NCBI GenBank assembly: GCA_030522415.1
Contig: CM060121.1
Location: 12,039,976 to 12,103,975 of the forward strand
Length of the DNA: 64,000 bases
Source: Channallabes apus
Lineage: Eukaryota > Chordata > Actinopteri > Siluriformes > Clariidae
Direction of reading: 5' to 3'
Below are positions 1 to 64,000 of this stretch, one piece after another. A model generated the notes under the pieces. That model had not been told where the DNA came from and ran no database searches. It saw only the letters and a list, made by a program, of their open reading frames with translations. Made by a program: the position numbers and the translations under genes. How positions within the stretch are numbered: the first letter of the stretch is position 1; each line of letters starts with the position of its first letter.

Positions 1-122
1 GCGATGGATTGGCACACTGTCCAGGGTGTACCCTGCCTCGTGCCCAGAGTCTCCTGGGATAGGCTCCAGGTCCCCGCGACCCTAAATACAGGGTAAAGCG
101 GTATAAAAGATGAATGAATGAA
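1..122 (+). repeat. 3' tail of a tRNA-derived SINE (L2/Maui-like tail)
   Basis: The stretch carries the motif order 'gatggattggcac', 'gggataggctccagg', 'cgcgaccct', 'aagcggtataaa' and then a GAATGAAT/AATTAATT simple tail. The same block forms the 3' part of the full-length SINE at 42,352-42,735. Only the tail falls inside the window, so the head would lie upstream. The family name is inferred from motif memory. Confidence 0.8.
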
Positions 123-864
123 TTAATTAATTAATATATTTTTATTGATTTTATTCTATTTATTTAGTTTATAGCCTGCCTTCCTCTGAAGGAATACAAA
201 ATGTACCTACGTATGCCAGTAATTAGTGTGAAAAAAATTTGACCATCTGAATAACACTGTCTTCAGGGATGGGACTCTGACTCAATAGTACCTAGCTACA
301 GTAAACCAGATTTCCTCCACTAGTGATCCCTTCTACAACACTCTTCTGTGTCCGTTCATATTAGTAATGTATTCTTTCATACAAAGCTATCATTTGTATG
401 AAATCAAGTAAACTTTTTTTTTGCTCATTAGAATAAGATTTAAGATTAAAATAATATAAATAAAGAATGAGCAAAAATACCAGAATAATATTAGAATTAT
501 ATTAAAATAATACCAACTTACCAAAACAAGTGTAAGTTTCTATATTTAAACCACAGGAATGTTTGGTGGGGAAAAAAATCGTTGACATTAATTTGGAATG
601 TTTACAGATCTTGGGTTGAGTTTTGCTGGCTTTAAATTTATTTTTAACGTTCTATTTACAATGTTGTGTTTGGGCCACCTCAGTGTAATATTATTTAACT
701 CATAACTAATTACCAGTGTTGTCCTAATTATAATCATAATGTTATATATATACATTTTCATACATTTAAAAATTATTAAACATTGCCAATTATTTGCATT
801 TTTTTTTCTTATTTAAGGACAGTGGTGATGTAAAGTAATTAATTATCACATAGTTGTTTGCCTC
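123..864. other. AT-rich non-coding stretch, nothing recognised
   Basis: No ORF, RNA gene or repeat family was recognised. The stretch holds one TACAGTA heptamer at 297-303. Confidence 0.5.
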
Positions 865-1490
865 CTTTTAATACCTAATGAAATCACCCAAACAACCCTG
901 ATCAAAAGTTTACATTGACTGTATGGCGACATAAACACAGAGGATGACACACACAGGTTTAAATGACTGTTAAAGGGAGGTTTCACACCTGTGACTAATT
1001 GTAATTGTAATTAGTGTATGTGCATAAATAGTCAGTGAGTTTCTCAGCTCATGAGGTGATGCACTAACTTGGATACTGCACCATGGGGAAGAGGAAAAAA
1101 CTGCCTATGGACCTGTCACCTGTGTAATAAGTAGTTAATGTTATAAAGCAGGAAAAGAATAAAAAGATCTCAACATTTGAAAATGCCAAACAGTACTGTT
1201 CCAACTTTGATAAAGAGGTGGAAAATAAGAGGTTCTACTGATACTAAGCCATGGTCAGGTAGACCAAGACATATTTCACCCAATACTGCCAGAAGAAATG
1301 TTCGAGATGCAAAGACAAATAGAAGACTGAGAAAAACAGGCTCACTGGAAAAAAAAAAGTGGTAGTGTTGTTTCAAGGAGCTTAATAAGGAGTTACTTGA
1401 AAACAAATTACCTGCATGGTCAAGTTGCCAAGAGAAAGCTGTTACTGCGGCCATGCCACAAAAAGGCCTGCTTGCTCAAAATTGAAAGTT
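865..1490 (+). mobile_element. Degenerate Tc1-like transposon fragment (5' half)
   Basis: A truncated Tc1/mariner copy from a family different from the 2.1-kb and 21.4-kb copies. A 5' leader ('cacacctgtgactaattgtaatt', 'ataaatagtcagtgagttt') precedes an ATG at 1,083 that opens with MGKRKK. The frame is lost after about 14 codons by a stop and deletions. The reading resumes near 1,180 as the N-terminal helix-turn-helix part of a Tc1 transposase, with STVPTLIKRWK, a GRPR-linker relic 'SGRPRHIS', and a helix rich in Arg and Lys. A third piece near 1,370-1,480 matches the region after the second HTH. The catalytic DDE half is absent. Family assignment rests on protein motif order. The fragment is clearly inactive. 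Confidence 0.8.
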
Positions 1491-2066
1491 CAACATAGAC
1501 CTTTCTAATAATGTCTGTATACGTTGTATAATAAAGTCTGCAGAAACCTTTGCTCTAGGATATGTTTAAGATCTGTGTAAATGATATGTTTGTAGTGTAT
1601 TGTTTTTGTGGGCTGTTATTATGTTGGTGAGCGTTTCACGGTATGTTATCCTTGCCTTAACATCAGCATTTGTTTTGCATATTACACTCTGCAATGTATT
1701 CTGCCCATACTGTATGAGGCTTCCCAAGGTGGAACATCAACTGTACCAAAACAATGTGATGGGAACATAAGCGCATAAGCTAGTTCAAGTGCACAGTATT
1801 AAACAGAAATGTCTTCAAAGATTAAACTTTTCAATCATATTGTTGTCAATAATATCACTTGAAAATTGTTGCAGTCATTCAGAATCAAAGCATTTTTACT
1901 AGTAGTATCAGATTTTCGGACCCCAATTTATAAATGTCAGTGCTTGGTAATTATTATAATCAGTCGTAGTCATTATATAATGAAACACTTTCCTTAATCA
2001 GTCAGATGGTGTAAACATTTTTCAAACCTACATCCTGGCTAATTAATAGCCAAAGTGAAACGTACA
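1491..2066. other. Non-coding, nothing recognised
   Basis: AT-rich sequence with no recognised gene or repeat. It includes a TACTGTA heptamer at 1,708-1,714. Confidence 0.5.
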
Positions 2067-2529
2067 TACAGTGGTGTGAAAAACTATTTGCCCCCTTCCT
2101 GATTTCTTATTCTTTTGCATGTTTGTCACACTTAAATGTTTCTGCTCATCAAAAACCGTTAACTATTAGTCAAAGATAACATAATTGAACACAAAATGCA
2201 GTTTTTAAATGAAGGTTTATGTTATTAAGGGAGAAAAAAAACTCCAAATATACATGGCCCTGTGTGAAAAAGTAATTGCCCCCTTGTTAAAAAATAACTT
2301 AACTGTGGTTTATCACACCTGAGTTCAATTTCTGTAGTCACCCCCAGGCCTGATTACTGCCACACCTGTTTCAATCAAGAAATCACTTAAATAGGAGCTA
2401 CCCGACACAGAGAAGTAGACCAAAAGCACCTCAAAAGCTAGACATCATGCCAAGATCCAAAGAAATTCAGGAACAAATGAGAACAAAAGTAATTGAGATC
2501 TATCAGTCTGGTAAAGGTTATACCCACAC

Positions 2530-2945
2530 AGAAATAACCTACATAAACATATATGTTTCAATATAGGTTTTGATATAGGTTTTTAATATATGTGACATAT
2601 ATAAAATTGTCCATTTTCCTATATTATATGTACATATGTACATATATGCGTGCATATATGCGTACATATATATAGACATATATGTGACATATAAAATTGT
2701 CCGTTTTCCTATATTATATGCACATATATGCGTACATATATCCGTGCATACTGTATATGTACCTATATACTGTAGGTACATGTATGCACGTATATATGTA
2801 CGCATATATGTCCACATTACTAAAATCTAGGTAAACATAGGTGCATACATGCACACATATAAGCATGCATACGTACATGTATGCATGTTTATATGTGTGC
2901 ATATATGCACCTATATGTTTACCTAGATATTAGTAAAATTACAAA
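2530..2945. repeat. Left subterminal repeat array of the nested element
   Basis: The array is dense in short palindromes such as ACATATATGT, GCATATATGC and TACATGTA. It includes two near-identical blocks with 'gtgacatat', 'ataaaattgtcc' and 'ttttcctatattatatg' at about 2,590-2,630 and 2,680-2,720. Its composition mirrors the opposite end of the element. ORFs here are by-products of the simple repeat. Confidence 0.8.
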
Positions 2946-3109
2946 AATCCATATGCTAGACAACAAAGAAAAGCCCAAAATGTAGAAATAATTTTTTTAA
3001 ATTTTCTTAAGAACAATCACATAGCATAAACAAAAATATAGTACAAGAACAAAAATAAGACAAAAAACTGAACAGGAAGAAAAAAAATATATATTTTGAG
3101 GACCTTCTC

Positions 3110-4619
3110 AGCTCCATGAGCTTTGAATTGATAGATGTGACTATCTGCCCTCGGGTGGCTGCCGGCCACTTCTTCAATGTTGCATCTAGAGAAGACAAAA
3201 ATAATGAGACAGTATAATAATAATAAATTATTATTTATTAAAACTTCAGACAACAACAATTAGTGCCACGAGGTTATTTGCAACACTATATGTTCTACTA
3301 AATAGAGGACTACACACCTTACAGCGCAATATAATGTGGCTTTAGAAGAGGAAAGGTAGTATTAAGAATTGAGCAAGTGATGAATTAGTATTATACAGTA
3401 GGTCCCAAGCAGACACAGTAACAATAATGGGTGCCCTACCTTATGCAGTCTCCATTGATGGCTAATAAACATTGATACAAGTAGGCTATGGTTAAAGTGG
3501 TGAACTTTACTCAACGCATTATGCATTGGAAGTCTCCAAGTCGAAGGTGCCCAGCAGCAGATTCCGTACCATGGCAGTAGCAGATGTGGCAAGGCGGGCT
3601 GCTCTCCACGCTTCTGCCTGGCAAAACACCCCAGAGCCCTTTATAACTTCAATTTGAAAAATAATTTCACATCACAATATTAATTTATTGGCAACTTTTA
3701 GAAACTTTTCATGTTTCATACTGATTCTTATGTTTAGCTTCCCAATAGTTAATAGGATTTTATGTATAAATGCAGATTAATGATAAAGATACATGCAGGG
3801 TAAAACTGCAACAGGAACAGTACAAAATAAAAACTGAAAAAAGACGGATATTCAGAGTAAAACAGTGCAAGAGAAAAAAAACCTGTACAAAACATACATG
3901 CAGGGTAAGCATTGGTGGGAGCAATGTCCAAGCAGTGTAGAGAAATATTTCTGTACGACTTCATTGTTTTGTGCTGTGTAGTATAGTATTATAATAGCTG
4001 ATCAGAGTGATCAACTCCCCATGTGCTGGTTGTACGCAGTCACAGGACATGGAAATGTCCTACATAAGGCAGTATTTTAGCCACTTGGAACTAGCTTGTT
4101 TGTGCTAAATAACATTACCGATAGCAGTGTTATAAGCTAAACAAAATGGAGCCAAATACACATTAGCATTAAAGCTATCCAAAACAAGGTGAATATAAAC
4201 ATCTGTAAACTCCATAAGGCATTAGCTTAGCCACCGGGAAATATCATGTTTGTGCTACATGAGGCAGCATGTTAGCATGATTTACTTAAACTATATAAAT
4301 GTGTCATACAAGCTGACAAGAGCTAGCTGTAGTGAGGAAAATATTTACTAATATTAGTTTAATATTATCAGAATAAGAGTTATATAAGACTTAATAACTT
4401 ACCCAGTGTAGCGCATGGGTCTATTCTCTGTTCAGAATGCTCCTGTTCATCGTCGGAGTCACATAGTCTTCTTCTGAGGTAAATGTGAACTCCTCCCACT
4501 TTCCAGAACATTCTGAAGAGTTTCCTCGGATGTGTAAGCGCGTGCCATATTCCAAAACGTGCAGAAAACTCACTGAATCTGAGTGTTTTCAAACCTGTCT
4601 CTCTGTGTTCGTTTTTCAT
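3110..4619 (-). pseudogene. Possible spliced minus-strand gene inside the nested element
   Basis: On the minus strand an ATG at 4,619 opens 72 codons (MKNEHRETGL...) with a basic middle and an acidic DSDDEQEHSE stretch, ending at a consensus donor GTAAGT that starts at 4,402. Upstream of the ATG are a GC-box-like CCACGCCCCC (about 4,630-4,640) and a CCAAT-like GCCAATCAC (about 4,672-4,680). Acceptor-like polypyrimidine-AG sites precede two downstream stretches. The one starting at 3,617 is in phase with exon 1 and is Cys/His-rich (CHICYCHG). The one starting near 3,188 follows 'ttctctag'. The protein is not recognised. The second stretch meets a stop after about 35 codons, so the gene may be decayed or the exon limits wrong. 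This is inference from splice and promoter signals only. Confidence 0.35.
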
Positions 4620-4879
4620 GCCGGTGTCCGGGGGCGTGGCCTAGTATGTAAATTACCCGGACTGATTTCCGTGTGATTGGCGTGTGGGCGTGTCCTGCCT
4701 CGGGTCATTAGCAGATAAGTGCGACAGAAATTCTGTGCCTCTCCTTGGTTTCATACTGATTATATAAACTGAGAATATTTGTTTTCAATGTGACTTGCAT
4801 CATTTAAAAGTAGACACTTTAAGCTTTCTATAGATATATTTCTAATTTCTTATTTCAGTTAATTTTAGTGACGTGTTTC

Positions 4880-5390
4880 AAAAAGATTTTCACGGAGACT
4901 GAGGTTTCATATATGTGCATATATCCTCATATACTGTATGTGGGCAATTAGGATACCAATTTCATGTGTTCGCACATAAGTTTTTTGCATTTTTTTTTGT
5001 TAGTTCTTAGTTATTGCCTTGATAATAAAGAATATGAGCTAGGCATCATGTATGACAGTTGCCAAAGTGAGATATGAGCTAAAATGACCAGATCCTGCCA
5101 TAGGAGACATATCTTGTATGTACATATAGGGCTTATATGTGGATATAAAGAAGCAATACAGGAGACCTATATGGCCTGTATATGCACATATATGCACCTC
5201 AATGTTGCCTACATGTGGCATATATACGCATATATGCAGCATATATATTATCATATACAGTATATGCATATATACTGCATATAGGTTTCATATATGTGCA
5301 TATGTCCTCATATAGATGCGGTTATATGCGCATATATTCTGCATATAGGTTTCATATATGGGCATATATCCTCATATAGGTTCTTTCCAT
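4880..5390. repeat. Right subterminal repeat array of the nested element
   Basis: Several copies of a unit with 'ggtttcatatatg', 'gcatatatcctcatata' occur at about 4,903-4,940, 5,284-5,320 and 5,345-5,385, interleaved with GCATATATGC-type palindromes. The array mirrors the left end. TACWGTA heptamers lie at 4,932-4,938 and 5,256-5,262. Confidence 0.8.
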
Positions 5391-5890
5391 GTGGGTAAAG
5401 CCATTTCTAAAGCTTTGGGACTCCAGCGAACCACAGTGAGAGCCATTATCCACAAATGGCAAAAACATGGAACAGTGGTGAACCTTCCCAGGAGTGACCG
5501 GCCGACCAAAATTACCCAAAGAACGCAGAGACAACTCATCCGAGAGGCCACAAAAGACCCCAGGACAACATCTAAAGAACTGCAGGCCTCACTTGCCTCA
5601 ATTAAGGTCAGTGTTCAAGACTCCACCATAACAAAGAGACTGGGCAAAAATGGCCTGCATGGCAGATTACCAAGGCGCAAACCACATTTAAGCAAAAAGA
5701 ACATTAAGTCTCGTCTCCGTTTTGCTAAAAAACATCTCAATGATTGCCAAGACTTTTGGGAAAATACCTTGTGGACCGACGAGACAAAAGTTGAACTTTT
5801 TGGAAGATGTGTGTCCCGTTACATCTGGCGTAAAAGTAACACAGCATTTCAGAAAAAGAACATCATACCAACAGTAAAATATGGTGGTGG

Positions 5891-5897
5891 TACTGTA
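5891..5897. other. Tc1/mariner excision footprint TACTGTA in Tc1 copy A
   Basis: The sibling element reads ggTAgtgtg at the matching place (near 22,329), whereas this copy reads ggTACTGTAgtgtg. The extra 5 bp are exactly a CTG plus a duplicated TA, and they shift the transposase frame into a TGA. Confidence 0.85.
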
Positions 5898-6570
5898 GTG
5901 TGATGGTCTGGGGTTGTTTTGCTGCTTCAGGACCTGGAAGGCTTGCTGTGATAGATGGAACCATGAATTCTACTGTCTACCAAAAAAACCTGAAGGAGAC
6001 TGTCCGGCCATCTGTTCGTCAACTCAAGCTGAAGCGATCTTGGGTGCTGCAGCAGGACAATGACCCAAAACACACCAGCAAATCCACCTCTGAATGGCTG
6101 AAGAAAAACAAAATGAAGACTTTGGAGTGGCCTAGTCAAAGTCCTGACCTGAATCCTATTGAGATGTTGTGGCATGACCTTAAAAAGGCGGTTCATGCTA
6201 GAAAACCCTCAAATAAAGCTGAATTACAACAATTCTGCAAAGATGAGTGGGCCAAAATTCCTCCAGAGCGCTGTAAAAGACTCGTTGCAAGTTATCGCAA
6301 ACGCTTGATTTCAGTTATTGCTGCTAAGGCTGGCCCAACCAGTTATTAGGTTCAGGGGGCAATTACTTTTTCACACAGGGCCATGTAGGTTTGGATTTTT
6401 TTTTCTCCCTAAATAATAAAACCCCTCATTTAAAAACTGCATTTTGTGTTTACTTGTGTTATCTTTGACTAATAGTTAAATGTGTTTGATGATCAGAAAC
6501 ATTTTGTGTGACAAACATGCAAAAGAATAAAAAATCAGGAGGGGTGCAAATAGTTTTTCACACCACTGTA

Positions 6571-7010
6571 GTAACTGACCAGAAGTTATTTTTCAAATCA
6601 ATATTATTCTGCCCAAACACTCCAGATGTAAAGGTGAGTGAACCATGAGGGAAGTCATTAGCTTTAGGCTGTATATTGGCAAACTTATACCTGCCATCAC
6701 GCTACCATTTGCAGCTGTATATTTTCATGTTTTTGCTATACAGTATTTCAGTAGTTGTATTACATTTCTGCTCAAGGGCTAAAGCTCTAAAAATGATCAA
6801 TTACATATCTTCACTAATAAGAGTCTTGTGTAAAAACTTAAACTTTTTTAACTTTATACTTTAACACATATTAATAACCTAACAAGGATGTATGCATTGC
6901 TGCAGATGATTACACAAAACAATACACACATATAATATGTGTTTTATAATATTATTATATACTGTATAATAATGTGGGCTTCATAGATAATTGGAAGACC
7001 TTTGAGGGCA
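6571..7010. other. Non-coding, nothing recognised
   Basis: AT-rich sequence with no recognised feature except TACWGTA heptamers at 6,739 and 6,960. Confidence 0.5.
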
Positions 7011-7207
7011 AAACTGGCCTGTTAGGGCGGGACGGTGTCCATCCCACTCGGGAAGGAGCTGCTCTCATTTCCTGTAGTATACTGTAGCACATCTCAGTAG
7101 AGGTCTAGTTAATCGGTGACAATCCAGAGCCCAGGCCAGGGAGCAGACAGACAGGCTAAACCAACCGTCTGCTAGCTGCATACAGTCATCAATCAGGGTT
7201 CAACATA

Positions 7208-8306
7208 TTGAGACTGTGTCTGTTCCCCGAGCTAAAATGTAGAACGATTCAGAAAGTCTGTTTTAATAATTTAATTAACATAAAGACCACAAACTCGGAT
7301 CATACTGAATGCGCAGCCGGCACCTCTGATCTGAAGCTAGGATTGTTAAATATTAGATCTCTCGCATCAAAAGCGGTTATTGTTAATGAAATTATCACAG
7401 ATCAGGCATTTAATATACTCTGTTTAACTGAAACATGGGTTAAACAGGACGAGTATGTAGCTCTAAATGAAGCTAGTCCTCCTGGGTACAGCTACATACA
7501 CCAGCCTCGGTTAACTGGTAGAGGAGGAGGCGTCACAGTTATTTACAATGATAATTTGACTATTGTACAAAAACATGGACACAAATTTAATTAATTTGAA
7601 ATTCTTTATAGTAACATAAGTGTATTTAAGTATATTAAGTCAGCTCAGTTGATTCCACTAATTATAATTTACAGACCTCCAGGGCCGTATTCTGAATTTC
7701 TTAGTGAATTTGCAGATTTCATCTCAAACCTAGTCGTTTCTGTAGACAAAGTGTTAATTGCTGGAGATTTTAACCCTCTCAAGGCAGGCATTGCTGATTT
7801 GCAACAGTTAAAAACTAACTACAGTACCTTATTACCCGAGATACATATTTTATGAGTTTTTTTTTACTCAGAAGTACCACTGCAGGACTTGATTGTCTCC
7901 TGTTACTAAAACTTAATTTGAGCCTGAAAGGGTTAATATTCATTTTGAGAGTCCAGAAGACCCTCTGTGTAGAGCATTTATGTCCATACTGGACTCAGTA
8001 GGAGTAAGTCAGTGTGTAGTAGGACCCACTCATAAAGCAGGTCACACTTTAGATTTAATAATATTCTTCGGATTAAGTATAAGAAATGTATTCACAATTC
8101 CACTGTCTGAAGTTATCTCAGATCACTATCTTGTCTCAATTCAAGTGCGTTACAGTGATAATGTACGCACAGCACCGTGCTACCTTATTAAACGTATATA
8201 TTCACATCAACTACCACAAACTACCACAGTAATCTCCCAGAGTTACCACCTTCGATTAGATCACCGTCTGACCCCACAGAACTCGATCAGGCGACTGAAT
8301 ATTTAG
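7208..8306 (+). pseudogene. LINE endonuclease domain (APE-type), degenerate
   Basis: The reading includes LGLLNIRSLASKA (catalytic Asn of the first APE motif), LCLTETWV (catalytic Glu), GRGGGVTVIY and, further on, EVISDHYLVSIQV (the terminal SDH motif). In the family this domain nicks target DNA to prime reverse transcription. The frame is interrupted after 7,594, around 7,860 and after 8,306, and a TACAGTA lies at 7,820. The ATG at 7,208 is simply the first in the open stretch, and no start can be argued strongly. The domain order and position just upstream of the RT support the call. Confidence 0.85.
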
Positions 8307-8512
8307 AGTCGACATTTCGTTATACCTTAGATAAAATAGATACAGTTAAAAGAAAAATTATTAGAGATAAGAAACTCGCTCCCTGGTATAACGATCACAC
8401 GCGCACAGATGGCCCGGAAATTAGAACGTAAATGGCGTCAAACTAAATTGTTAGTATTTCAAATAGCATGGAAAGAGAGCATTCTGAACTACAGGAAAGC
8501 TCTTAGTGTAGC

Positions 8513-8519
8513 TACTGTA
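8513..8519. other. Excision-type footprint TACTGTA in the LINE ORF
   Basis: Omitting 5 bp joins ...KALSVA directly to RSTYLSTL, a continuous LINE reading. With the insertion the frame runs into TAG within about ten codons. Confidence 0.8.
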
Positions 8520-8742
8520 GATCAACGTATCTCTCCACTCTTATAGAAAATAACAAAATTAGTAGTCAAATTAACCAGAAGTAAGACCACTGCAGAAATC
8601 TCCACAACAACATCATGCTATAGTGAGGACTTCATGAACTTTTTTAATAATAAAATTGTAAATATCAGGCATAAAATTGAGGCTTTGAAACTGAACAATG
8701 TAATTGATGCAGATGTTAACCTAGCCATGTCAGATCGGAACA

Positions 8743-8749
8743 TACTGTA
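8743..8749. other. Excision-type footprint TACTGTA in the LINE ORF
   Basis: The insertion makes ata-ctg-tag, an immediate stop. Omitting 5 bp gives NIEYIIPLEENEL in the frame of the following RT segment. Confidence 0.8.
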
Positions 8750-9335
8750 GAATATATTATTCCGCTTGAAGAGAATGAACTAATTTCACTCATCTCTTCT
8801 GCAAATTCATCAACCTGTATATTAGATCCTATACCGACACATTTTCTTAAACAGATAGTACCAGCAATAACAGAACCATTGTTGAGAATAACTAATTCCT
8901 CACTCAGCATTGATTATGTTCCAAAATCTTTTAAATTAGCAGTTATCAAACCAATAATTAAGAAACCTGTCCAATCAAGAAATCAGCTGTCCAATTACAG
9001 GCCAATATCAAACCTTCCTTTTATCTCTAAGATTCTGGAAAAGATAGTAGCGGAGCAGCTATGCTCATATCTACATAGAAATGGCATACATGAACTGTAT
9101 CAGTCAGGATTTTGGCCTCATCACAGCACAGAAACAGCACTCGTTAAAGTAGTAAATGACCTCCTATTGGTCTCTGATCAGGGTTGTGTAACTATGCTTG
9201 TATTACTCGACCTCAGTGCAGCTTTTGACACCATTGATCATGCTATTCTTCTTCACAGATTAGAAAATGTAGTAGGAATTAAGGGTACAGCCCTCTCCTT
9301 GCTCAGATCCTATTTGACCGATCGTTATCAGTATG

Positions 9336-9342
9336 TACTGTA
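9336..9342. other. Excision-type footprint TACTGTA in the LINE RT
   Basis: The ORF ends gta-ctg-tag here. Omitting 5 bp joins DRYQYV to [10 protein letters not shown], which runs on into the GVPQGS motif. Confidence 0.82.
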
Positions 9343-9632
9343 GACTTAAATGATGATTATTCTGCATGTTCTCTAGTGGAGTTTGGTGTTCCACAGGGTT
9401 CAGTTTTAGGCCCACTGCTTTATTCCCCTTACATGCTACCTCTGGGCAACATACTCTGTAAGCATGGTATTAGTTTTCATTGTTATGTTGATGACACACA
9501 GTTATATGTCTCAGCAAAACCTGATGATAAAAAAACAGCTTACTAAAGTTGAGCAATGTGTGCAGGACATTGGATGCTAATTAACTTCCTTCTGCTTAAT
9601 CCGGATAAGACTGAAGTTCTAGTCATAAGAAA

Positions 9633-9639
9633 TACAGTA
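9633..9639. other. TACAGTA at an internal deletion of the LINE
   Basis: The RT text (EVLVIRN) stops at this heptamer, and the text just after it (LSLNDAEKLVHAF) belongs several hundred bases further on in such LINEs. The deletion breakpoint and the footprint coincide. Confidence 0.6.
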
Positions 9640-10145
9640 TATTGTCGCTAAATGATGCAGAAAAACTAGTTCATGCTTTTATCACCTCTAGGTTGGACTA
9701 TTGTAATGCCTTACTGTCTGGTTGTTCAGCTAGCTGCATAAACAAGCTTCAGCTAGTCCAGAATGCAGCAGCGAGAGTCCTCACTAGAACCAGAAGATAT
9801 GAGCACATCACCCCTATCTTATCTTCACTGCATTGGCTCCCTGTGAAATTTCCCATTGTTTTTAAAATACTGCTCTTGACATATAAAGGATGAAATGGTC
9901 TCGCGCCGCAGTACAGTATCTGAGCGAACTGCTAGTGTTTTACGATCCGCCACGCCTACTTTGATCAAAGGATGCAGGCTGCTTGTCAGTACAGGGTATT
10001 ATGAAAACTACAGCTGGGGGCAGAGCTTTTTCTTACAAAGCCCCCAAATTATGGAATAGTCTACCAAATAGTGTTCGGGACTCAGACACAGTCTCAGTGT
10101 TTAAGTCTAGGCTAAAAACCTATTTATTTAGCCAAGCATTTTTAT
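9640..10145 (+). pseudogene. LINE ORF2 C-terminal region, degenerate
   Basis: The region encodes SLNDAEKLVHAFITSRLDYCNALLSGC, an RVLTRTRRYEHITPILSSLHWLPV stretch and, after a frame break, the conserved tail region with SAPKLWNSLPN-like text near 10,040-10,080 ('aagcccccaaattatggaatagtctacc'). These are the usual C-terminal motifs of L2-type ORF2. The TACAGTA at 9,912-9,918 turns ccg-cag-tat-ctg into a frame that meets TGA at once. The 3' UTR follows. Confidence 0.88.
9912..9918. other. Excision-type footprint TACAGTA in the LINE ORF
   Basis: The sequence gcagTACAGTAtctg replaces an expected cag-tat-ctg (Gln-Tyr-Leu). The 5-bp excess creates a TGA stop. Confidence 0.8.
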
Positions 10146-10545
10146 AAATAGATTTGCCTTAGGTAAAGGAGCAGATCTGGGGGACTCATGGACGTAGAGT
10201 ATTATGGTGAACTGATATGTTTAGATGCTGTCTTCCTCACTCTCATTTGATCACTCAGGTTTGTTGATGGTGAGGTGATTGTTTGCTTTACATCTCAGGG
10301 AGCCCTCATGTTTGTGTACCCTTCTGACTCTCCCTTTTAGTTGTGCTGTCATAGTTAGTCCTGCCGGAGTCTCTGCTTGCACTCTACAGTAAATATACAT
10401 TCACATTATACATTATGTGACTGTGACCATACCTAACTGCCATCTCTCCTCTTCTTCTCTTTCTCCCCCTCTTTCTCTTCCCTCTCTCCCCCTGTCTCCC
10501 CCTTTCACTCTTTCTCTCTCTCTCTCTGTCGAGCTACACATGTCT

Positions 10546-15023: not shown

Positions 15024-15176
15024 TCAGTCTGTCTTTTGGCTGCTTCCTCATCGACGGGTCATCACAGCAGACCATCTGATCCACACGACAATTTGGCACA
15101 GGTTTTACTGTATGCTGGATGCCCTTTCTGACACAACCATCCCATTTTATCCAGGCTTGGGACTGGAACTACACTG
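15022..15176 (+). repeat. Dispersed repeat fragment
   Basis: The text 'tcagtctgtcttttggctgc', 'gggtcatcacagcagaccatctg' and 'ggatgccctttctgacacaacc' is a phrase set commonly dispersed in fish genomes, associated with retroposons. The family is not named with confidence. A TACTGTA at 15,106-15,112 sits where 'ttttacgctggatg'-type text is usual. Confidence 0.6.
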
Positions 15177-18149: not shown

Positions 18150-19800
18150 CTCGTTCCCGCCTTTTCAGGGAACAGGGTTACAGCACAGTAACCCGAGATG
18201 TTCCCTTTCAAAGGCTTTCTCTCGATGCTGCGTGAAAACGCTATGGGAACGAGAATACCAACGCCACCGCACTACAAGTGTCTGGACAGTAAGGTTGTGT
18301 AGCGTGTGCGCACAAAGCCGAGAAGGTCTCAGAACTATGCCTGGGCAGCTAACTCGGGGACCGTGAGCCCGGAGTAGCATGAACATCCAGATTGTAAATG
18401 TAAGAAATGTGTGCGGGGAGGACCAACCCTTCGCGCCACACAATTGCTGCAGGGGATACCTCCTGCTGGTGCAGACAGGGATGATCACCCTGGTTGGGTA
18501 AGCCCTGCTTCCCAGAGGCGGAGTGAGCCCACGTGCCTCATTGGAGAGGGCAATATGCATCTCTCACCCAGTATAGTGGCGCTCTGACTTACGCCACTGG
18601 CTGGAGCGGTGGACGTAAATCTGAAGAGCACGTACTGGACAGTAAGTGAAGTTTCTCTTGCTCCGACGCTGAAAAAGGTGGAGGACAGAAGGCTTCAAAC
18701 AATGCTTTTACTGTAGGTGCATCCTGCAGAAACTCCAGCACTGAAGCAATCCGGCAGTGGACTGGGTCTACCTGCTTAGCAATACTTGCTGCAGGGGAAT
18801 ACCCCTTGCTAGTGCAATGGATGAGGCGATCCCCTGGTTGAATGAGCCCCGATTCCTAGAGGCGAAGTGAGCCCACGCGCCTTATAGGAGAGGGCAAAGC
18901 ATCTCTCGCCCAGTATAATGGCGCTCTGACTTACGCCACTAGCTGATGCGGTGGACGTAAATCTGAAGAGCACATGCTGGACAGTAAGTGAAGTTTCTCC
19001 TGCTCCGAAGCTGTAAAAGGCGGAGGACAGAAGGCTTCAAACAATGCAGTTAAGTACATCCTGAGGGTACTAGGGCACAAGCCCAAGGACAAGCTTTTCC
19101 TGCAGAAGCTCCGGCACTGAAACATTTCGACAGTGGACTGGGTCTACCTGCTTGGCACACACTTGTTGCAGGGGAATACCTCTTGCTAATCCAATAGCTG
19201 AGGCGATCCCCTGGTTGAATGAGCCCTGATTCCTAGAGGCGAAGTGAGCCCACGCGCCTCATAGGAGAGGGCAATAGCATCTCTCATCCAGAACATGTAG
19301 AAGCTGCTCTGACCTACCCCACTAGCTGATGCGGTGGACGTAGATCTGAAGAGCACAAGCTGGATACAGCAAGTGAAGTCTCTCCTGCTCCGAAGCTGTA
19401 AGTGCGGAGGACAGAAGGCTACAAAAGCAATAGGGTGCCTGTTGGGTTTATAGAGCTTTCGGAAGATAGTTGAGAGAGGATGCAGTTACGTACGTCCTGA
19501 GAGTACTAGGGCACAAATCCGAGGACGGAACCTCCAGCACTGAAACAATTCGGCAGTGGACTGGGTTTACCTGCTTAGCAGACACTTGCTGCAGGGGAAT
19601 ACCTCTTGCTAGTGCAATGGATGAGGCTTGGTTGAAAGAGCCCTGATTCCTAGAGGCGAAGTGAGCCCATGCGCCTCATAGGAGAGGGCAATAGCATCTC
19701 TCATCCAAAACATGTACAGTAGAAGCTGCTCTGACCTACGCCACTAGCTGATGTGGTGGACGTAAATCTGAAGAGCAGTAAAAGGCGAAGCATATGAAAT
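18150..19800 (-). pseudogene. Tandemly amplified tyrosine recombinase segments
   Basis: Four tandem units of roughly 340-420 bp (about 18,440-18,780, 18,781-19,160, 19,161-19,580 and 19,581-19,800) each encode on the minus strand the same fragments of a DIRS tyrosine recombinase. These are an N-terminal VLEFLQ-type helix, CPVRALQIYVH, and the LSYEARGLTSPLGIRAHSTRG block with the catalytic Arg. Only the unit nearest the left terminus continues into GWSSPHTF and a FYNLDV motif carrying the catalytic Tyr (codon at 18,394-18,396), and that runs in a shifted frame. The middle of the recombinase is deleted in every unit. In the family the enzyme integrates circular cDNA. None of these units could do so. 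Confidence 0.82.
19715..19721. other. Excision-type footprint TACAGTA in a tandem unit
   Basis: The neighbouring unit reads catgTAgaagctgctctgacc at 19,285, whereas this unit reads catgTACAGTAgaagctgctctgacc. The two differ by a clean 5-bp insertion. Confidence 0.85.
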
Positions 19801-21388: not shown

Positions 21389-21600
21389 CAGTGGTGTGAA
21401 AAACTATTTGCCCCCTTCCTGATTTCTTATTCTTTTGCATGTTTGTCACACTTAAATGTTTCTGCTCATCAAAAACCGTTAACTATTAGTCAAAGATAAC
21501 ATAATTGAACACAAAATGCAGTTTTTAAATGAAGGTTTACGTTATTAAGGGAGAAATAAAAATCCAAATCTACATGGCCCTGTGTGAAAAAGTGATTGCC
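21389..21600 (+). repeat. 5' inverted terminal region of Tc1 copy C
   Basis: The region is inverted relative to 22,790-22,999. Shared blocks include the outer CAGTGGTGTGAAAAACTATT, 'gactaatagtta'/'taactattagtc', and an inner 'catggccctgtgtgaaaaag'. The transposase binds such repeats in the family. Confidence 0.9.
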
Positions 21601-21767
21601 CCCCTTGTTAAAAAATAACTTAACTGTGGTTTATCACACCTGAGTTAAATTTCTGTAGTCACCCCCAGGCCTGATTACTGCCACACCTGTTTCAATCAAG
21701 AAATCACTTAAATAGAAGCTACCTGACACAGAGAAGTAGACCAAAAGCACCTCAAAAGCTAGACATC

Positions 21768-22781
21768 ATGCCAAGATCCAAAGAAATTCAGGAACAAATG
21801 AGAACAAAAGTAATTGTGATCTATCAGTCTGGTAAAGGTTATAAAGCCATTTCTAAAGCTTTGGGACTCCAGCGAACCACAGTGAGAGCCATTATCCACA
21901 AATGGCAAAAACATGGAACAGTGGTGAACCTTCCCAGAGTGGCTGGTCGACCAAAATTACCCCAAGAGCGCAGAGACAACTCATCCGAGAGGCCACAAAA
22001 GACCCCAGGACAACATCTAAAGGCCTCATTTGCCTCAATTAAGGTCAGTGTTCACGACTCCACCATAAGAAAGAGACTGGGCAAAAACGGCCTGCATGGC
22101 AGATTTCCAAGGCGCAAACCACTTTTAAGCAAAAAGAACATTAAGGCTCGTCTCAATTTTGCTAAAAAACATCTCAATGATTGCCAAGACTTTTGGGAAA
22201 ATACCTTGTGGACCGACGAAACAAAAGTTGAACTTTTTGGAAGGTGCGTGCCCCGTTACATCTGGCGTAAAAGTAACACAGCATTTCAGAAAAAGAACAT
22301 CATACCAACAGTAAAATATGGTGGTGGTAGTGTGATGGTCTGGGGTTGTTTTGCTGCTTCAGGACCTGGAAGGCTTGCTGTGATAGATGGAACCATGAAT
22401 TCTACTGTCTACCAAAAAATCCTGAAGGAGAATGTCCGGCCATCTGTTCGTCAACTCAAGCTGAAGCGATCTTGGGTGCTGCAGCAGGACAATGACCCAA
22501 AACACACCAGCAAATCCACCTCTGAATGGCTGAAGAAAAACAAAATGAAGACTTTGGAGTGGCCTAGTCAAAGTCCTGACCTGAATCCTATTGAGATGTT
22601 GTGGCATGACCTTAAAAAGGCGGTTCATGCTAGAAAACCCTCAAATAAAGCTGAATTACAACAATTCTGCAAAGATGAGTGGGCCAAAATTACTCCAGAG
22701 CGCTGTAGAAGACTTGTTGCAAGTTATCGCAAACGCTTGATTGCAGTTATTGCTGCTAAGGGTGGCCCAACCAGTTATTAG
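21768..22781 (+). CDS. Tc1-like transposase, 337 aa, open but with a scrambled linker
   Basis: A DD34E transposase that in its family binds the TIRs and cuts and pastes DNA into TA sites. The ATG at 21,768 starts MPRSKEIQEQ, with the first HTH at about residues 20-50 (YKAISKALGLQRTTVRAII). Catalytic residues are D150 (WTDET), D241 (QQDNDPKH) and E276 (DLNPIE), with 34 residues between the last two. A glycine-rich VKYGGGSVM lies at 183-191. Residues about 57-84 are out of frame relative to copy A. A 1-bp deletion near 21,940 and an 8-bp deletion near 22,020 compensate each other, so the ORF stays open but the GRPR-like linker and the first helix of the second HTH are replaced by unrelated residues. 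Intact siblings would be about 340 aa. The catalytic core looks sound, but DNA binding is probably impaired. Confidence 0.93.
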   Translation: MPRSKEIQEQMRTKVIVIYQSGKGYKAISKALGLQRTTVRAIIHKWQKHGTVVNLPRVAGRPKLPQERRDNSSERPQKTPGQHLKASFASIKVSVHDSTIRKRLGKNGLHGRFPRRKPLLSKKNIKARLNFAKKHLNDCQDFWENTLWTDETKVELFGRCVPRYIWRKSNTAFQKKNIIPTVKYGGGSVMVWGCFAASGPGRLAVIDGTMNSTVYQKILKENVRPSVRQLKLKRSWVLQQDNDPKHTSKSTSEWLKKNKMKTLEWPSQSPDLNPIEMLWHDLKKAVHARKPSNKAELQQFCKDEWAKITPERCRRLVASYRKRLIAVIAAKGGPTSY

Positions 22782-22787
22782 GTTCAG

Positions 22788-22996
22788 GGGGCAATTACTT
22801 TTTCACACAGGGCCATGTAGGTTTGGATTTTTTTTCTCCCTAAATAATAAAACCCCTCATTTAAAAACTGCATTTTGTGTTTACTTGTGTTATCTTTGAC
22901 TAATAGTTAAATGTGTTTGATGATCAGAAACATTTTGTGTGACAAACATGCAAAAGAATAAGAAATCAGGAGGGGGGCAAATAGTTTTTCACACCA

Positions 22997-22999
<3 letters not shown>
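22788..22999 (-). repeat. 3' inverted terminal region of Tc1 copy C
   Basis: This is the inverted counterpart of the 5' region, starting just after the transposase stop. The last bases are CACCACTG before TA. Confidence 0.9.
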
Positions 23000-46105: not shown

Positions 46106-46700
46106 CTGGTGCCACCGTGTTCATGAAGTTGGACCTCCGGAGCGCCTACAACTTGGTGCGTATCAGAGAGGGCGATGAGTGGAAGACGGCATTCATCACA
46201 CCCACCGGACACTACGAGAGCCTGGTCATACCCTTTTGACTGATAGACTGATAGAACGCACCCTCGGCCTTCCAACAGTTTATCAACGACGCCCTCAGGG
46301 ATATGCTGGGCAGATGGGTGTTCGTCTACCTAGACGATATTCTCATATACTCTCACAACATCAAAGAACACATCCAACACGTCCGGGCTGTTCTAAAGAG
46401 ATTGCTCGCGCACCAACTGTACTGCAAGCTGGAAAAATGTGCCTTTCACAAGCAGTCCACCACGTTCCTGAGTTTTGTCATCTCGCCCCAGGATGTGGCC
46501 ATGGACCCACAGAAGCTTGAAGCTGTGCGTCACTGGCCCCTACCCAGGACTCTCAAACAACTTCAACAGTTTCTTGGGTTTGCGAAATTTCTATAGTCGC
46601 TTCATCCGGGGCTACAGTACAGTTGCAGCACCACTAACAACATTGACCAGGCCTTTGTCTCATCCTTTTCGGGTCACCCCCGCCACCATCTCCTCTTAAC
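46106..46700 (+). pseudogene. Gypsy RT catalytic core
   Basis: In the shifted frame the region carries the [10 protein letters not shown] motif with the first catalytic Asp and the [10 protein letters not shown] block. A stop at about 46,238 lies in an 8-bp tandem duplication ('gactgata'), after which another frame holds the palm with [10 protein letters not shown] (YLDD near 46,327-46,338) and the QQFLGF connection. A one-base shift near 46,585 follows. It is recognisable but not translatable as one protein. Confidence 0.9.
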
Positions 46701-47099: not shown

Positions 47100-47860
47100 A
47101 CGACTTTACGTGCCCAAGGAATCCATTCTCCAATGGGGGCACTCTTCGCCCGTCGCCGGACACCAAGGGACCCGAAGAACCCTGTCATTCAGAGTTCGTT
47201 CAGGCGTGCCCGGTGTGCGTCAGGGCCAAAGATATAAACCAACCATCTCCTGGAGAGCTCCAACCACTTCCCGTTCCTCGACGGCCATGGACGCACATTG
47301 CTCTGGATTTCATCATGGGCCTGCCATTTTCCAACGGAAAGAACACATTCCTCACCATCGTTGACCGGTTCTCCAAGGCAATGCACCTGGTGGCCCTCAC
47401 CGGACTCCCATTGCCTAAAACCACCGCTGAGCTGATACTGGAACACGTAGTCCACCTGCATGGGTTCCCCAAGGACATCGTCTCGGACAGGGGGCCCCAG
47501 TTCACCGCCCAGTTCTGGAAGGCCTTCTGCCGTCTGATCAATTCCACCAGCAGTCTGTCATCTGGATACCATCCCCAGGCTACCTAATGTGTTTTGTTGC
47601 TGATCGCCAGCGCTCCTGGGCCCGCTACCTCATATGGGCAGAACTATCTCACAATCTTCACGTTTCCTCTGCCACCAACCTAAGCCCATTTGAGGTGTGC
47701 TATGGTATACCATCGGCCCAACAGTTGGTCCATACAGTAGATGTCGACGGATCTGGAATCAAGCCAACCTTGCCATCCAGAACGCCAACGACCTTTTCAT
47801 CACTCAGCACCGCCGTCGATCCCCCCCCCCCCCCCCCCCGGGACATTTGTACAAAGTAGG
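47100..47860 (+). pseudogene. Gypsy integrase
   Basis: The N-terminal zinc-binding region is split (an H-H half near 47,140-47,165, CPVC near 47,205). The ORF 47,213-47,587 contains RRPWTHIALDFIMGLP with the first catalytic Asp, VDRFSKAMHLV, VSDRGPQF with the second Asp, and SSGYHPQAT. It stops just short of the catalytic Glu region, which has been lost or altered. The C-terminal stretch resumes as LSPFEVCYGI. A TACAGTA at 47,743 separates two frames, and a run of about 18 C at 47,820-47,838 lies nearby. In the family the enzyme inserts the cDNA into the genome. Confidence 0.9.
47743..47749. other. Excision-type footprint in the Gypsy integrase tail
   Basis: The ORF ending ...QQLVH and the overlapping ORF that continues CRRIWNQANLAIQ are separated by the 5-bp excess in TACAGTA. 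Discounting it puts both in one frame. Confidence 0.72.
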
Positions 47861-48292
47861 TGACAAGGTATGGCTATCTACAAAGAACCTACATCTGCAC
47901 ACTGAATCCCGGAAACTTTCACCTCGCTTCACACCCACATCACCCTGAGGATAAACCCTGTCACTTACCGGCTCCAGCTGCCTGCGGCGCTCCGGATTCA
48001 CCATGGATATTCCACACATGTCAACTCAAACCCTTCATCACCTCTCCGATGATTCCATCCACCCCCCCTGCTCCTCCTCCCTGTATCATCGATGGTGGAC
48101 CCGCCTACACTGCGCGTCGGATACTTGATTCGCGCCCTTGGGCCAGAGGCACTCAGCACCTGGTCGATTGGGAAGGCTACGGCTCCGAGGAACGGTCTTG
48201 GATTCCGGCCCGGTTCATTCTCGATCCCGAACTAATTCGAGACTACCGTCGTCGGGTATCCTCCCGGTCGACGGTCCTGGACAAGGGGGTAC
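47860..48292 (+). pseudogene. Gypsy pol C-terminus with chromodomain
   Basis: Text of the GPF/Y-like module (KLSPRF) lies near 47,920. A chromodomain spans about 48,100-48,240: [34 protein letters not shown] and [11 protein letters not shown], with the aromatic residues that in the family bind methylated histone H3 and steer integration. The purine tract and 3' LTR follow at once. A frame break near 47,950 separates it from the integrase. Confidence 0.9.
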
Positions 48293-48640
48293 TGTCATGC
48301 ACACTCAATCCGCGACCAGCACTAGGACCCGGAAGTAATGCGGTCGCAAACCAGGAAGTATAAGAGGCGTAAACAAACCACAACACATCGCTCAGTCATT
48401 GAGTTCGCCCATGTCGTTCAGACTGTTCGTCCACCATTTCGTGAGTACTCACTTTCTTGGGTTTTCTTTCTGATTCGAGTGTATGTTTATAGGACGCGAG
48501 TTAAATTTGTGTTTTTCCCTTGCTCCCCTTCTGTGAGAGTCCTTAGACTAATACGCGTGGTTATCCTGCCTACTCACTTGCTTCCGCGTTTGGGTTTACC
48601 ATCCACGCTACAAAGGGCTAACCGCTAAAGCTACGTCTTC
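48293..48640 (+). repeat. 3' LTR (right end uncertain)
   Basis: It starts TGTCATGC after the purine tract, and its first 123 bp match the 5' LTR remnant. A plausible end is near 48,610-48,675, but neither a target duplication nor a second full LTR is available to fix it. Confidence 0.8.
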
Positions 48641-53485: not shown

Positions 53486-53628
53486 TTAACGGTTTTAAAT
53501 TAAGTACATACTTTAATCTATAGTTTATATTGTGTAATGTGTTGTTGTTAATGTGTTCTGTACTTTGCTTGTGGTATAATGGCTCTGTAGCTCTCGGCCT
53601 GTTTTCAGTCTCTGTGTAACAGAATCAA

Positions 53629-53822
53629 CACACCAGGTTTAAACTAATACTGTACCTGTATAGTCTAATGCTAATGTCTGTCTGTGTTCACACACCAGGT
53701 TTAAACTAATACTGTACCTGTAGATTCTAATACTAATGTCTGTCTGTGTTCACACACCAGGTTTAAACTAATACTGTACCAGTAGATTCTAATACTAATG
53801 TCTGTCTGTGTTCACACACCAG
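53629..53822. repeat. 62-bp tandem repeat, three units
   Basis: Units start at 53,629, 53,691 and 53,753, with a partial fourth unit. Each contains 'caggtttaaactaatactgta' text, including TACTGTA. The units are over 90% identical. Confidence 0.95.
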
Positions 53823-54879
53823 TTTATATTTTAGTTTGTGTGTTTGTGAGACAACCTGACTTTTGTTGAGCACAAATAAACTATAGTAGTGCTTTTTTGT
53901 AACCTTGTGCAAATTAAATCTGTTGAACTCATGAATAAAATCTGCCTCATAATTACTGATGTAATGCTTTTCAAAAACATGTTATAGTGTAGAAAATGCA
54001 TTTAGCATATCCTAAACACTTAATGTACTGGTAACACATTTGCAGTACAATATTGTGGGCGGGGCGGCGGTTTGCGACCGTCATGCCTTGCGGCAGGTGT
54101 TCTTTTTGTGTTCACCCTGTTTGGGACGTGTGTTTAGGTTAGTGGCTTCGGCCAAGTTTGAGTATGTGTACATGTGTGCTATCTCTACGCGTGTATGTGC
54201 TGCATTCTGCTACCGTTCTCCAGTTCTAGCTAATAGCTGAATAGGTGTGTCATTACATTGTGTAGCCACCAAACTCACTACAGTATTATAGAAGGTTGTG
54301 TGTACTGTACGATACAATAAAGTATATTTGTATTAACCACAAAGTGTACTTTTTTTTTAGTATTTGTAATTGGCCAGAAGTATAACAGCATGTTACTGCT
54401 GCAATAAGAATATACTCATAGTATATTAATCATGTATTTGTAATACAGTAAAAATAGCTGTAATGTACTTATAATACATTAAATATATACTTCAATTGTA
54501 TTAATAATACTGTCAGGTATGTACGTTAGTACACACACAGCCATATACTTTAAGTGTACTAAAGTATACTTAAAGTTGTTCCACTTTAGCACACAAAAGT
54601 ATACTTAATACACTTAAAATTGTGCTTTTGTACAATTTAATTACAACTTAAATACACTTAGTACAAAATTAGTTGTTCCAAAATAGCAAACTTCAAGTAT
54701 ACTAGTCATTAGTCTGGAGCAAGTACATTTAAGTATGCTTTGGCACGCTAGGATTTAATATACTTAGCATACTTTTTTTTTACTTGGGAGGAGCTGCAAC
54801 TAAAAGTGAGCAGTTTGACGTTGCAGTTGTACGCTATTGTATAGAGTAGAGTGTATATAGTTTGTAATAGTATAAATGT

Positions 54880-56414: not shown

Positions 56415-56611
56415 GCCTATTTTTAAAGGTTTTACATATCTGCAATGCCATTCTTATATTCCGGTAGTGGTAAAATTGACATGTTATAAGTAATGATAAC
56501 TTAATTCTACCTGACACATCTGAAAACCCAAACACACAGTTTGATGTATGAAGCCTCCCCATTAACAGACTAAAAGACACTGGCAAGCCATATTAGCACA
56601 TACTGTATATA

Positions 56612-56700
56612 CAGGTACATCCCAATAAATTAGAATATCATCGAAAAGCTGATTTATTTCTGTAACAGCTTTTTCGATGATATTCTAATTTATTTACCTG
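56612..56700. mobile_element. Minimal Tc1-type palindromic MITE, 89 bp
   Basis: It starts CAGGTA and ends TACCTG, flanked by TA (56,610-56,611 and 56,701-56,702). The arms share 'aataaattagaatatcatcgaaaagct' in inverted orientation around a short loop, and the text resembles termini of a fish Tc1 family. A TACTGTA heptamer lies three bases from the left TA (56,601-56,607). Confidence 0.88.
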
Positions 56701-59072: not shown

Positions 59073-59093
59073 ATACATACATACATACTGTAC

Positions 59094-59134
<41 letters not shown>

Positions 59135-60690: not shown

Positions 60691-60691
60691 A

Positions 60692-60915
60692 ATTCAATTC
60701 AATTTTATTTGTATAGCGCTTTTAACAATTGACATTGTCTCAAAACAGCTTTACACAATCAAAAGAATTATTTAAGTTTGTATGGAATGTGAATGTGTAT
60801 GAATCAAAATGTTCAGATATTCCCTGGCGAGCAAGCCCGAGGGCGACAGTGGCAAGGAAAAACTCCCTGAGACGGTAATAGGAAGAAACCTTGAGAGGAA
60901 CCAGACTCATATAAA
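60692..60915 (-). repeat. Retroposon 3' end, inverted
   Basis: An (ATTGAA)n tail in inverse, then 'gtatagcgcttttaacaattg' and 'ggcgacagtggcaaggaaaaactccctgag' and 'gaagaaaccttgagaggaacc', a widespread fish retroposon end. It shares its tail with 58,660-58,738. Confidence 0.85.
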
Positions 60916-60995
60916 AATAGCCTCGTTACTCAATTTTTATGATCAGAACGCGCAACACCCCCGGTCGCATGATAAGAACGCGCACAACGCACCAT

Positions 60996-61020
60996 CCCCC
61001 CCCCCCCCCCCCCCCCCCCC
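60996..61020. repeat. Poly-C run
   Basis: About 25 consecutive C. Assembly length may be unreliable. Confidence 0.95.
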
Positions 61021-61471
61021 GTTCGCATGATAACGCAAATGTGGCTAGTAAAAAGGCTGGATGGCGAGTGACTCCGGAAATCCACTAGCCACATTGACCA
61101 GTGAGCAAAAAAGTTAATGTCAAACCCTAATACATACTGTACATATGTACAAACATACATGCATACATACATGTGCTAATTTATTCTATGACCTATTCTA
61201 TGATTCTATTTCACTTCAAATTTATTGTAAATGTAGTGTAATAGTAACATGTACACACTCTTACTGGGGCAAGTTTTATTAACGTTGTTGTTTTATAGAC
61301 TTGACAGGAGATTTGACTGGACTGCAGTGGCTCCTGGAAAAGTGTGTATGAGTGGTGTTTGCCATGACGTGAATCATCAGTTTGTTGGTTTTGTGTTACT
61401 GAATGAGGATTTAAGTGGAAGTTGAGACTTGTGTGTATTCCCTTAATGTATTTCTCAACATGAGGCTGTGT

Positions 61472-61474
61472 CTG

Positions 61475-61534
<60 letters not shown>

Positions 61535-61569
61535 GTGTGTGTGTGCATATACTGTATGTGTGTGTGCAT

Positions 61570-61605
<36 letters not shown>
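61472..61605. repeat. Compound microsatellite (CT)n(TA)n(TG)n
   Basis: CT, TA and TG runs follow one another, with 'gcatatactgtatgtg' between the TG runs. Confidence 0.97.
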
Positions 61606-61606
<1 letters not shown>

Positions 61607-61609
61607 GTA

Positions 61610-63484: not shown

Positions 63485-63524
<40 letters not shown>

Positions 63525-63670
63525 CACATAGAGTTAGAGTTCCGTCTGGGAATGGAGTAGCTAGAACTATGTAAGAATTAACATCCCCTACTGTAGGTAA
63601 CTAACAAATAAATGTAGTAAGTTATTGAACTGCAACAGAAATTGGCTAGGTACCTAAACATTACTTTTCT
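61610..63670. other. Non-coding stretch; 151-codon ORF not supported
   Basis: A minus-strand ORF (62,296-62,751, 151 codons) overlaps a 132-codon plus-strand ORF. Neither shows a domain. An (AAT)n run lies at 63,486-63,523. Confidence 0.45.
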
Positions 63671-63674
63671 TATA

Positions 63675-63790
63675 CACTCTAAAAAATGCTGGGTTGTTTT
63701 TTCTACCCAAACGCTGGGTTGCCGCTGTTGGGTCATTTTTCTGGGTTATTTACAGAGAGTTGGGTAGTTTTTGTGTAACCCAGCTGCTGG
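63675..63790 (+). mobile_element. Possible CACTA-type transposon terminus
   Basis: It starts CACTCTAAAAAATGCTGGG and holds repeated subterminal words 'gctgggtt' and 'aaccca' in both orientations. The other end lies beyond the window. CACTA assignment rests only on the CACT start and this repeat style. Confidence 0.5.
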
Positions 63791-63794
63791 GTTG

Positions 63795-63935
63795 AAGTTT
63801 GCTCGGCCCCTCCCCCAAAGTTCACCGGTGGATTCAGCGGCTGTCACTCAGCTTCGTGTCTCTTGAGCTCCCACACCGCTGATGACGGTTCATCCTCCTC
63901 GGACATTTAAGGGGAAATGGCGTTAAATACAAGGT
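63795..63935 (+). promoter_or_regulatory. GC-rich promoter-like region with short ORF start
   Basis: 'cggcccctcccccaaag' (GC-box-like) is followed by a GC-rich leader, an ATG at about 63,917 (gaaATGGCGTTAAATACAAG) and a 'ggtctgt' that could be a splice donor. It lies directly after the CACTA-like terminus. Function is inference. Confidence 0.3.
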
Positions 63936-64000
63936 CTGTATTCACATGTTCACTCACCTAATTCACATATGACTGAAAAATTATTACTATATGTAACATT

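Follow-up and report, generated by a model that had tools for sequence, protein, structure and literature searches.

The heptamers TACAGTA and TACTGTA (together TACWGTA) are far more abundant than expected in a 64,000-base stretch of the genome of the clariid fish Channallabes apus (assembly GCA_030522415.1, contig CM060121.1, positions 12,039,976 to 12,103,975; hereafter the window), and our results support a model, to which we give a probability of about 93%, in which most of them are footprints left by the excision of Tc1 transposons of the Sleeping Beauty (SB) kind. We favor this model because copies of the same repeats exist in which the site is an empty TA, because the flanks of the heptamers carry a transposase target signature, and because a resident Tc1 family has the right ends, closely similar copies and open reading frames. 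SB excision is known to give two consensus footprints, TACAGTA and TACTGTA (PMC4378557), and a review of the SB system describes a CAG footprint left by end-joining repair after excision (PMC8151067).

TACAGTA and TACTGTA are reverse complements of each other and are thus a single word read on both strands. An exact count gives 44 TACAGTA and 43 TACTGTA in the window, the same total of 87 that a preliminary description of this sequence had reached by hand. First-order Markov statistics predict 5.5 and 5.4 occurrences, and models of orders 1–3 whose background excludes the heptamers predict 10.5–11.1 for both words together; about 11 of the 87 (~13%) are therefore attributable to chance background, and the excess claimed earlier over an expectation of about 13 holds. 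Unmasked models of order 4 and 5, which consist of sub-words holding most of the heptamer itself, raise the expectation to 16.5 and 30.0 for TACAGTA and to 14.2 and 29.5 for TACTGTA, still below the observed counts. Among the 64 words of the form TANNNTA in the window, the two rank first and second, followed by TATTTTA with 31 occurrences; among all 7-mers ordered by excess over first order they rank 8th and 9th, behind simple repeats.

This excess is not confined to the window and is present across 25 further loci of the 1.16-Gb genome. Sampling contigs C1–C20 blind at 5.0 Mb, as twenty stretches of 10 kb, gave 145 heptamers in 200 kb, and five 10-kb stretches from mid-contig positions contain 46 in 50 kb, for a pooled count of 191 where 38–45 are expected, or 0.76 per kb (bootstrap interval 0.60–0.94). 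Single 10-kb loci carry between 1 and 18. The earlier suggestion that the whole genome might be affected is borne out for the sampled loci with this wide spread, and its figure of about one scar per kilobase describes the window well (~76 above background in 64 kb) but is too high for the 250-kb sample, where the excess is ~0.6 per kb. When both strands of the 200-kb sample are read, TACAGTA is first among the 420 words of equal base make-up (145 versus a median of 25), in line with the excess over composition-matched heptamers that had been anticipated; in the same sample the heptamers lie outside the 25 most excessive 7-mers, which are mostly satellite and microsatellite words. A pattern count over the whole genome finds the double motif TACAGTATATACAGTA at 704 + 638 = 1,342 places and the reversed pattern at 5 + 1 = 6. 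Eight loci (L001–L008) chosen for carrying this double motif were excluded from the density and flank counts and included in the searches for paralogs. Locus L028, which at positions 1–10,000 is an array of short satellite units resembling ACACTCTGGTCCACACTAC, was included in the density and excluded from the analyses of flank diversity, flank signature, cleaned indels, heptamer-centred alignments and mutated footprints described below.

The most direct evidence comes from repeat copies that differ by the footprint itself. We compared the window and 28 loci all against all, removing pairs that were below 75% identity or too short and making no use of the heptamer in selecting insertions. All 14 of the 5-bp insertions with the form TA-NNN-TA had CAG or CTG as the inner triplet (8 TACTGTA and 6 TACAGTA); three of them fall within a single array in locus L019, so that 12 places remain. 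At other lengths, insertions flanked by TA numbered none at 3, 6 and 8 bp, three at 2 bp, two at 4 bp, 17 at 13–24 bp and 47 at 7 bp. Most 7-bp length variants originate in the L028 satellite, and 7-bp insertions of every kind fell from 160 to 11 once this satellite and tandem matches were removed. In a cleaned scan with the same filter on pairs, from which L028, local tandem matches and comparisons of L019 with itself had been taken out, 832 pairs yielded 430 insertions of 1–30 bp, a figure that includes subfamily differences common to many copies and counted repeatedly. Footprints made up 11 of the 34 non-tandem 5-bp insertions, and all 11 TA-NNN-TA cases had CAG or CTG. The predicted class of TA-associated 5-bp insertions in repeat alignments is thus present and uniform in content; the stronger proposal that footprints are a major mutational class is correct for 5-bp insertions and overstated for short insertions as a whole, of which they form 11 of 430.

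We also asked for every TANNNTA word in 34 sequences (338 kb) whether an alignable copy elsewhere lacks it, dropping local matches. The input comprised 331 TACWGTA and 1,761 other TANNNTA words, of which 12 and 113, respectively, had poor or other alignments only and were excluded. A copy with plain TA was found for 14 of 29 alignable TACWGTA sites, whereas among the remaining TANNNTA words 6 of 269 had one (odds ratio 41, Fisher p 6e-12, a value that is only indicative because sites within one repeat copy are not independent). Three of the six control matches overlap a neighboring footprint, one is a TTTTA microsatellite, and two are the same 5-bp difference (GTACT) between the window near 54,465 and locus L015, which is not a footprint. 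An earlier, smaller run had given 13 of 42 TACWGTA with matches and 4 of 327 controls.

These comparisons bear on the idea that selection or a mutation bias maintains the motif, for instance as a binding site or an effect of composition. The word is palindrome-like, it sits in an AT-rich context, and the Markov models of orders 4–5 narrow the gap in part, even if they do so with the word's own sub-words. Models of orders 1–3, however, predict 4–8 times fewer heptamers, paralogs differ by exactly CAG or CTG plus TA at the 14 sites just described, and the flanks carry the transposase target signature set out below. We have rejected this explanation, since empty copies occur far above the rate for control heptamers, and regard it as extremely improbable.

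Within the window, 17 of the 87 heptamers have an alignment across the site, and six of these are cleanly TA-empty in another copy, in agreement with the preliminary description, which called the heptamer a TA enlarged by 5 bp where an uninterrupted reference exists. The confirmed footprints of the window (all on the plus strand, as are the heptamers at 9633, 10,385, 15,106 and 53,648–53,778 below) are the TACAGTA at 5256–5262 (TA in L008); the TACTGTA at 5891–5897, within a Tc1 transposase frame (TA in L024 and in the element at 21,389 described below); the TACTGTA at 8513–8519, in what appears by eye to be a copy of a long interspersed nuclear element (LINE; TA in L027); the TACTGTA at 9336–9342 (TA in L027 and L016); the TACAGTA at 9912–9918 (TA in L027 and L014); and the TACAGTA at 19,715–19,721, where the window's own copy at ~19,228 has TA and two other copies align less cleanly. 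By eye, the TACAGTA at 9633–9639 also corresponds to TA in L027, next to a length difference of ~180 bp. At 5891, the split of the transposase frame into open reading frames (ORFs) at 5358–5903 and 5900–6349 indicates a transposon that was itself scarred by excision. Four confirmed footprints accompany 180 substitutions in the LINE-like stretch of ~3.5 kb that aligns with L027, a ratio that serves as an example and not as a rate because the stretch was picked for its good alignment; in it, the heptamers at 7080 and 8743 lack a clean alignment, and L027 has two further insertions of 5 bp, neither of them a footprint. Less clear is the TACTGTA at 15,106–15,112, a possible footprint in a repeat, which is missing in L011 and L021 with gaps of 3 and 12 bp in place of a clean 5 bp. 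The heptamer at 54,303 is also present in L015, and that at 46,613 lies in frame within what by eye is a Gypsy reverse transcriptase and is probably not a scar. The other 70 of the 87 heptamers, which are spread over the window (1–64,000) and lack an alignment across the site, are footprints by inference only, with chance accounting for about 11 of the 87.

A test that needs no alignment, and hence does not depend on empty sites, comes from the bases next to the heptamers. In 270 distinct TACWGTA contexts, the symmetrized flanks at +1, +2 and +3 have T at 0.42, R (A or G) at 0.63 and T at 0.49, compared with 0.32, 0.51 and 0.34 around 1,588 other TANNNTA words; plain TA resembles these controls. 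The paired positions agree: 122 of 270 TACWGTA contexts and 407 of 1,588 control contexts combine Y at −2 with R at +2 (p 2e-10), and 53 and 191, respectively, combine A at −3 with T at +3 (p 0.001). The complete AYA/TRT motif is found in only nine contexts of each set (p 0.0004). As a group, the heptamers are thus flanked as expected of Tc1/Sleeping Beauty targets (AYA-TA-TRT), which the control words are not. The published consensus targets are CAYATATRTG or AYATATRT for Tc1 in worms (PMC9635669) and ANNTANNT for SB (PMC2756404).

The excess could in principle also stem from a repeat family, a satellite or an element terminus that contains TACAGTA, for example terminal inverted repeats (TIRs) beginning CAGTA, and such cases exist. 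Three TACTGTA at 53,648, 53,710 and 53,772 belong to one 62-bp tandem array (53,648–53,778) that the window has in common with L015, and they therefore reflect at most one ancestral event, not three. The TACAGTA at 10,385–10,391 is present in all three alignable copies (L027, L014 and L024) and offers no sign of being a footprint, and the L019 array has a footprint-like word in three units. In other animals, a Rhodnius list includes three miniature inverted-repeat transposable elements whose TIRs begin with TACAGTA (PMC4678618). Repetition of this kind is nonetheless largely refuted as the general origin of the word by the empty-site copies and by the diversity of its surroundings, with 222 distinct pairs of 16-base flanks among 231 occurrences counted, and the TIR of the resident Tc1 element is TACAGTGGTG, not TACAGTA; we judge such an origin very unlikely. 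The 62-bp array is part of a duplicated stretch (window 53,590–54,500, L015 4,700–5,750) of which the pieces seen are ~91–99% identical.

The candidate source of the scars is a Tc1 family with a full-length element of 1,611 bp at 21,389–22,999 (plus strand). As the preliminary description had stated, it has CAG...CTG ends, and it is flanked by TA on both sides. Its inverted repeats of ~215 bp are 91% alike, and an inner sequence, GGCCCTGTGTGAAAAAGTGATTGCCCCC, resembles by eye the outer CAGTGGTGTGAAAAACTATTTGCCCCC, as in the inverted repeat/direct repeat (IR/DR) layout. An open frame at 21,768–22,781 (plus strand) encodes a predicted transposase of 337 amino acids with the domains HTH_SB, HTH_Tnp_Tc3_2 and DDE_3 above cut-off. 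The putative catalytic residues are D150, D241 and E276, with 34 residues between the last two (DD34E spacing, by eye); D241 was itself chosen by eye on what we take to be the SB numbering, and a script placed this residue at the neighboring D243, for a spacing of 32. The best solved relative is SB100X (5cr4; 1e-85), alignable over the catalytic domain, and among the best 120 of 7,978 scored candidates are relatives with 86–89% identity over 97–100% of the length in Erpetoichthys, the frog Xenopus tropicalis, Polypterus, Oryzias and others. Ends, repeats and domains assign this family to the IR/DR (Sleeping Beauty) group of Tc1 elements.

The element is 97.7–98.3% identical to copies in L034–L036 and L024. 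A genome search with it found at least 40 copies (40 of 3,086 first-look candidates were scored) that, its own copy aside, are 97–98% identical over the aligned parts, most of them from query position 192. Three retrieved copies are full-length at 1,620 bp, 98.8–99.2% identical to one another, and have open frames of 340 amino acids. The similarity of the copies (97–99%) and their open frames of 337–340 amino acids point to this family as a putative source of the scars. A further copy at 2069–6569 (plus strand) has the frame broken at 5891 and is interrupted between element positions 454 and 455 by an AT-rich insert of 2.87 kb (~2523–5395), which has CCCACA...TGTGGG ends and TA at each junction. 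The insert contains several short AT-rich tandem arrays with periods of 10–38 bp, and part of it is copied in L008. At L034 142–150, the TA duplication of a Tc1 copy immediately follows a TACTGTA word, which suggests that scars or their contexts may be targeted again. At window positions 56,601–56,620, a TACTGTA adjoins a different CAG-ended sequence (TACAGGTACATCCC...), which suggests a second Tc1 family.

From the biochemistry of the family, and in keeping with the ends seen here, we propose that a CAG...CTG element would lie between the two TA dinucleotides produced when it inserted into a site resembling AYA-TA-TRT. Cutting by the transposase would leave the three terminal bases as 3' overhangs, and end joining would then pair these overhangs with a single A:A or T:T mismatch whose resolution either way would give TACAGTA or TACTGTA. 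The end state is observed at ~14 places, where the site has 5 bp more than the bare TA of another copy. Repeated over many generations, and probably by several CAG-ended Tc1 families, this process could have produced the ~0.6 footprints per kb of the sampled genome and the ~1.2 per kb of the window.

Several points weigh against this model or narrow its reach. That 5 bp were gained and not lost is deduced from what is known of the mechanism and from the target signature rather than from an outgroup, and among the copies compared we found no element that is resident in one and excised in another. Fifteen of the 29 alignable heptamers are matched only by identical or substituted sequence, so that events preceding duplication and words that are not footprints are mixed in. 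Since three of the 14 empty sites are in one L019 array and another (L019_9598) is weak, the independent places number 11 to 12. Nested doubles of the form TA-NNN-TA-NNN-TA account for 3 of 154 in the sample, no excess over the ~3.6 expected from chance pairing; the very many insertion–excision cycles proposed earlier are thus upheld as a number of sites but not as repeated cycles at one site.

The footprints may be genuine and yet derive mainly from older or non-autonomous CAG-ended relatives of Tc1 and not from the family at 21,389, a possibility that is compatible with the excision model and that we consider evenly balanced. The window and the first 20 loci (264 kb) contain 15 transposase-related places at E < 1e-4 with 27–100% identity, ten of them at 27–51% and two of them halves of one split copy. 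A rough mixture estimate from the flanks gives 90 ± 22 transition-mutated and 77 ± 28 transversion-mutated footprints versus 268 intact contexts, so some of the scars may be old. This estimate is weak and is trained on the same data, and the family at 21,389, with its near-identical copies and open frames, argues in the other direction. The decay of the word at one mismatch relative to a Markov background was noisy (control words 0.81–1.21).

The same 264 kb contain 232 heptamers (87 + 145), of which ~47 are expected by chance at first order, or about a dozen scars per transposase-related place; this ratio is an upper figure because short non-autonomous copies are not properly counted. A search for TIR pairs of short elements returned only four: two are members of the 21,389 family, in the window and in L024, another falls in the L028 satellite, and the fourth is weak. 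Extrapolated from the excess in the 250-kb sample, the scars would number ~0.5–0.9 million genome-wide, which is arithmetic and not a count. We think it somewhat probable that what Tc1 activity has chiefly left behind in this genome is footprints and not resident elements. On this reading, excision (as distinct from insertion) would have a genome-wide record that can be counted and perhaps dated, and +5-bp frameshifts would keep arising, also within transposon genes, as at 5891.

Elsewhere in the window, ORFs at 47,213–48,363 encode an integrase core (rve) as well as a chromodomain; they lie in the most GC-rich 4 kb (44–48 kb) and presumably belong to a Gypsy-type retrotransposon.

The history of transposons is usually read from the copies that survive, and a fixed 7-base word lets excisions be counted after the element has been lost. 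In such a genome, the rate of excision, the outcome of repair and the choice of target would become measurable by sequence alone, and polymorphic TA/TACWGTA markers would become available. Caution is advisable with k-mer, motif and indel statistics in scar-rich genomes, as footprints shape all three.

At 2.7 Gb, the mouse genome provides a background of ~0.11 heptamers per kb, and the 0.76 per kb of our 250-kb sample is about seven times higher. The mouse figure uses the >300,000 locations of TACAGTA/TACTGTA given in an SB study (PMC4378557). In the literature searched, with partial coverage, we found no study that tallies SB-type footprints across a natural genome. Worm Tc1 leaves a footprint of a different length. 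Its target in the Bergerac strains of C. elegans, TA within AYATATRT, is the same as here (PMC9635669). Natural excisions of DNA transposons have been counted genome-wide in rice by comparing two species; there, 94 putative excisions were reported, eight of them perfect and most with deletions or filler, and the rice Mariner ends, CTCCCTC, yield no TACWGTA word, unlike those described here (PMC4423477). Zebrafish ZB, a young native fish Tc1/mariner element, leaves SB-like footprints of 0–3 bp, but those reported come from donor plasmids in cultured cells and are not a genome count (PMC7913693). Finally, we note that SB itself has the same two heptamers, CAG...CTG ends, TA duplication, IR/DR layout and target signature, and its transposase is the closest structural match, while its footprints have been described after laboratory mobilization, with ~100–200 candidates per tumor sample (PMC4378557), and ours stand in a reference assembly at ~0.6–1.2 per kb. 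Thus the SB-type scar and its mechanism are known, and what appears to be new is the density of the scar.

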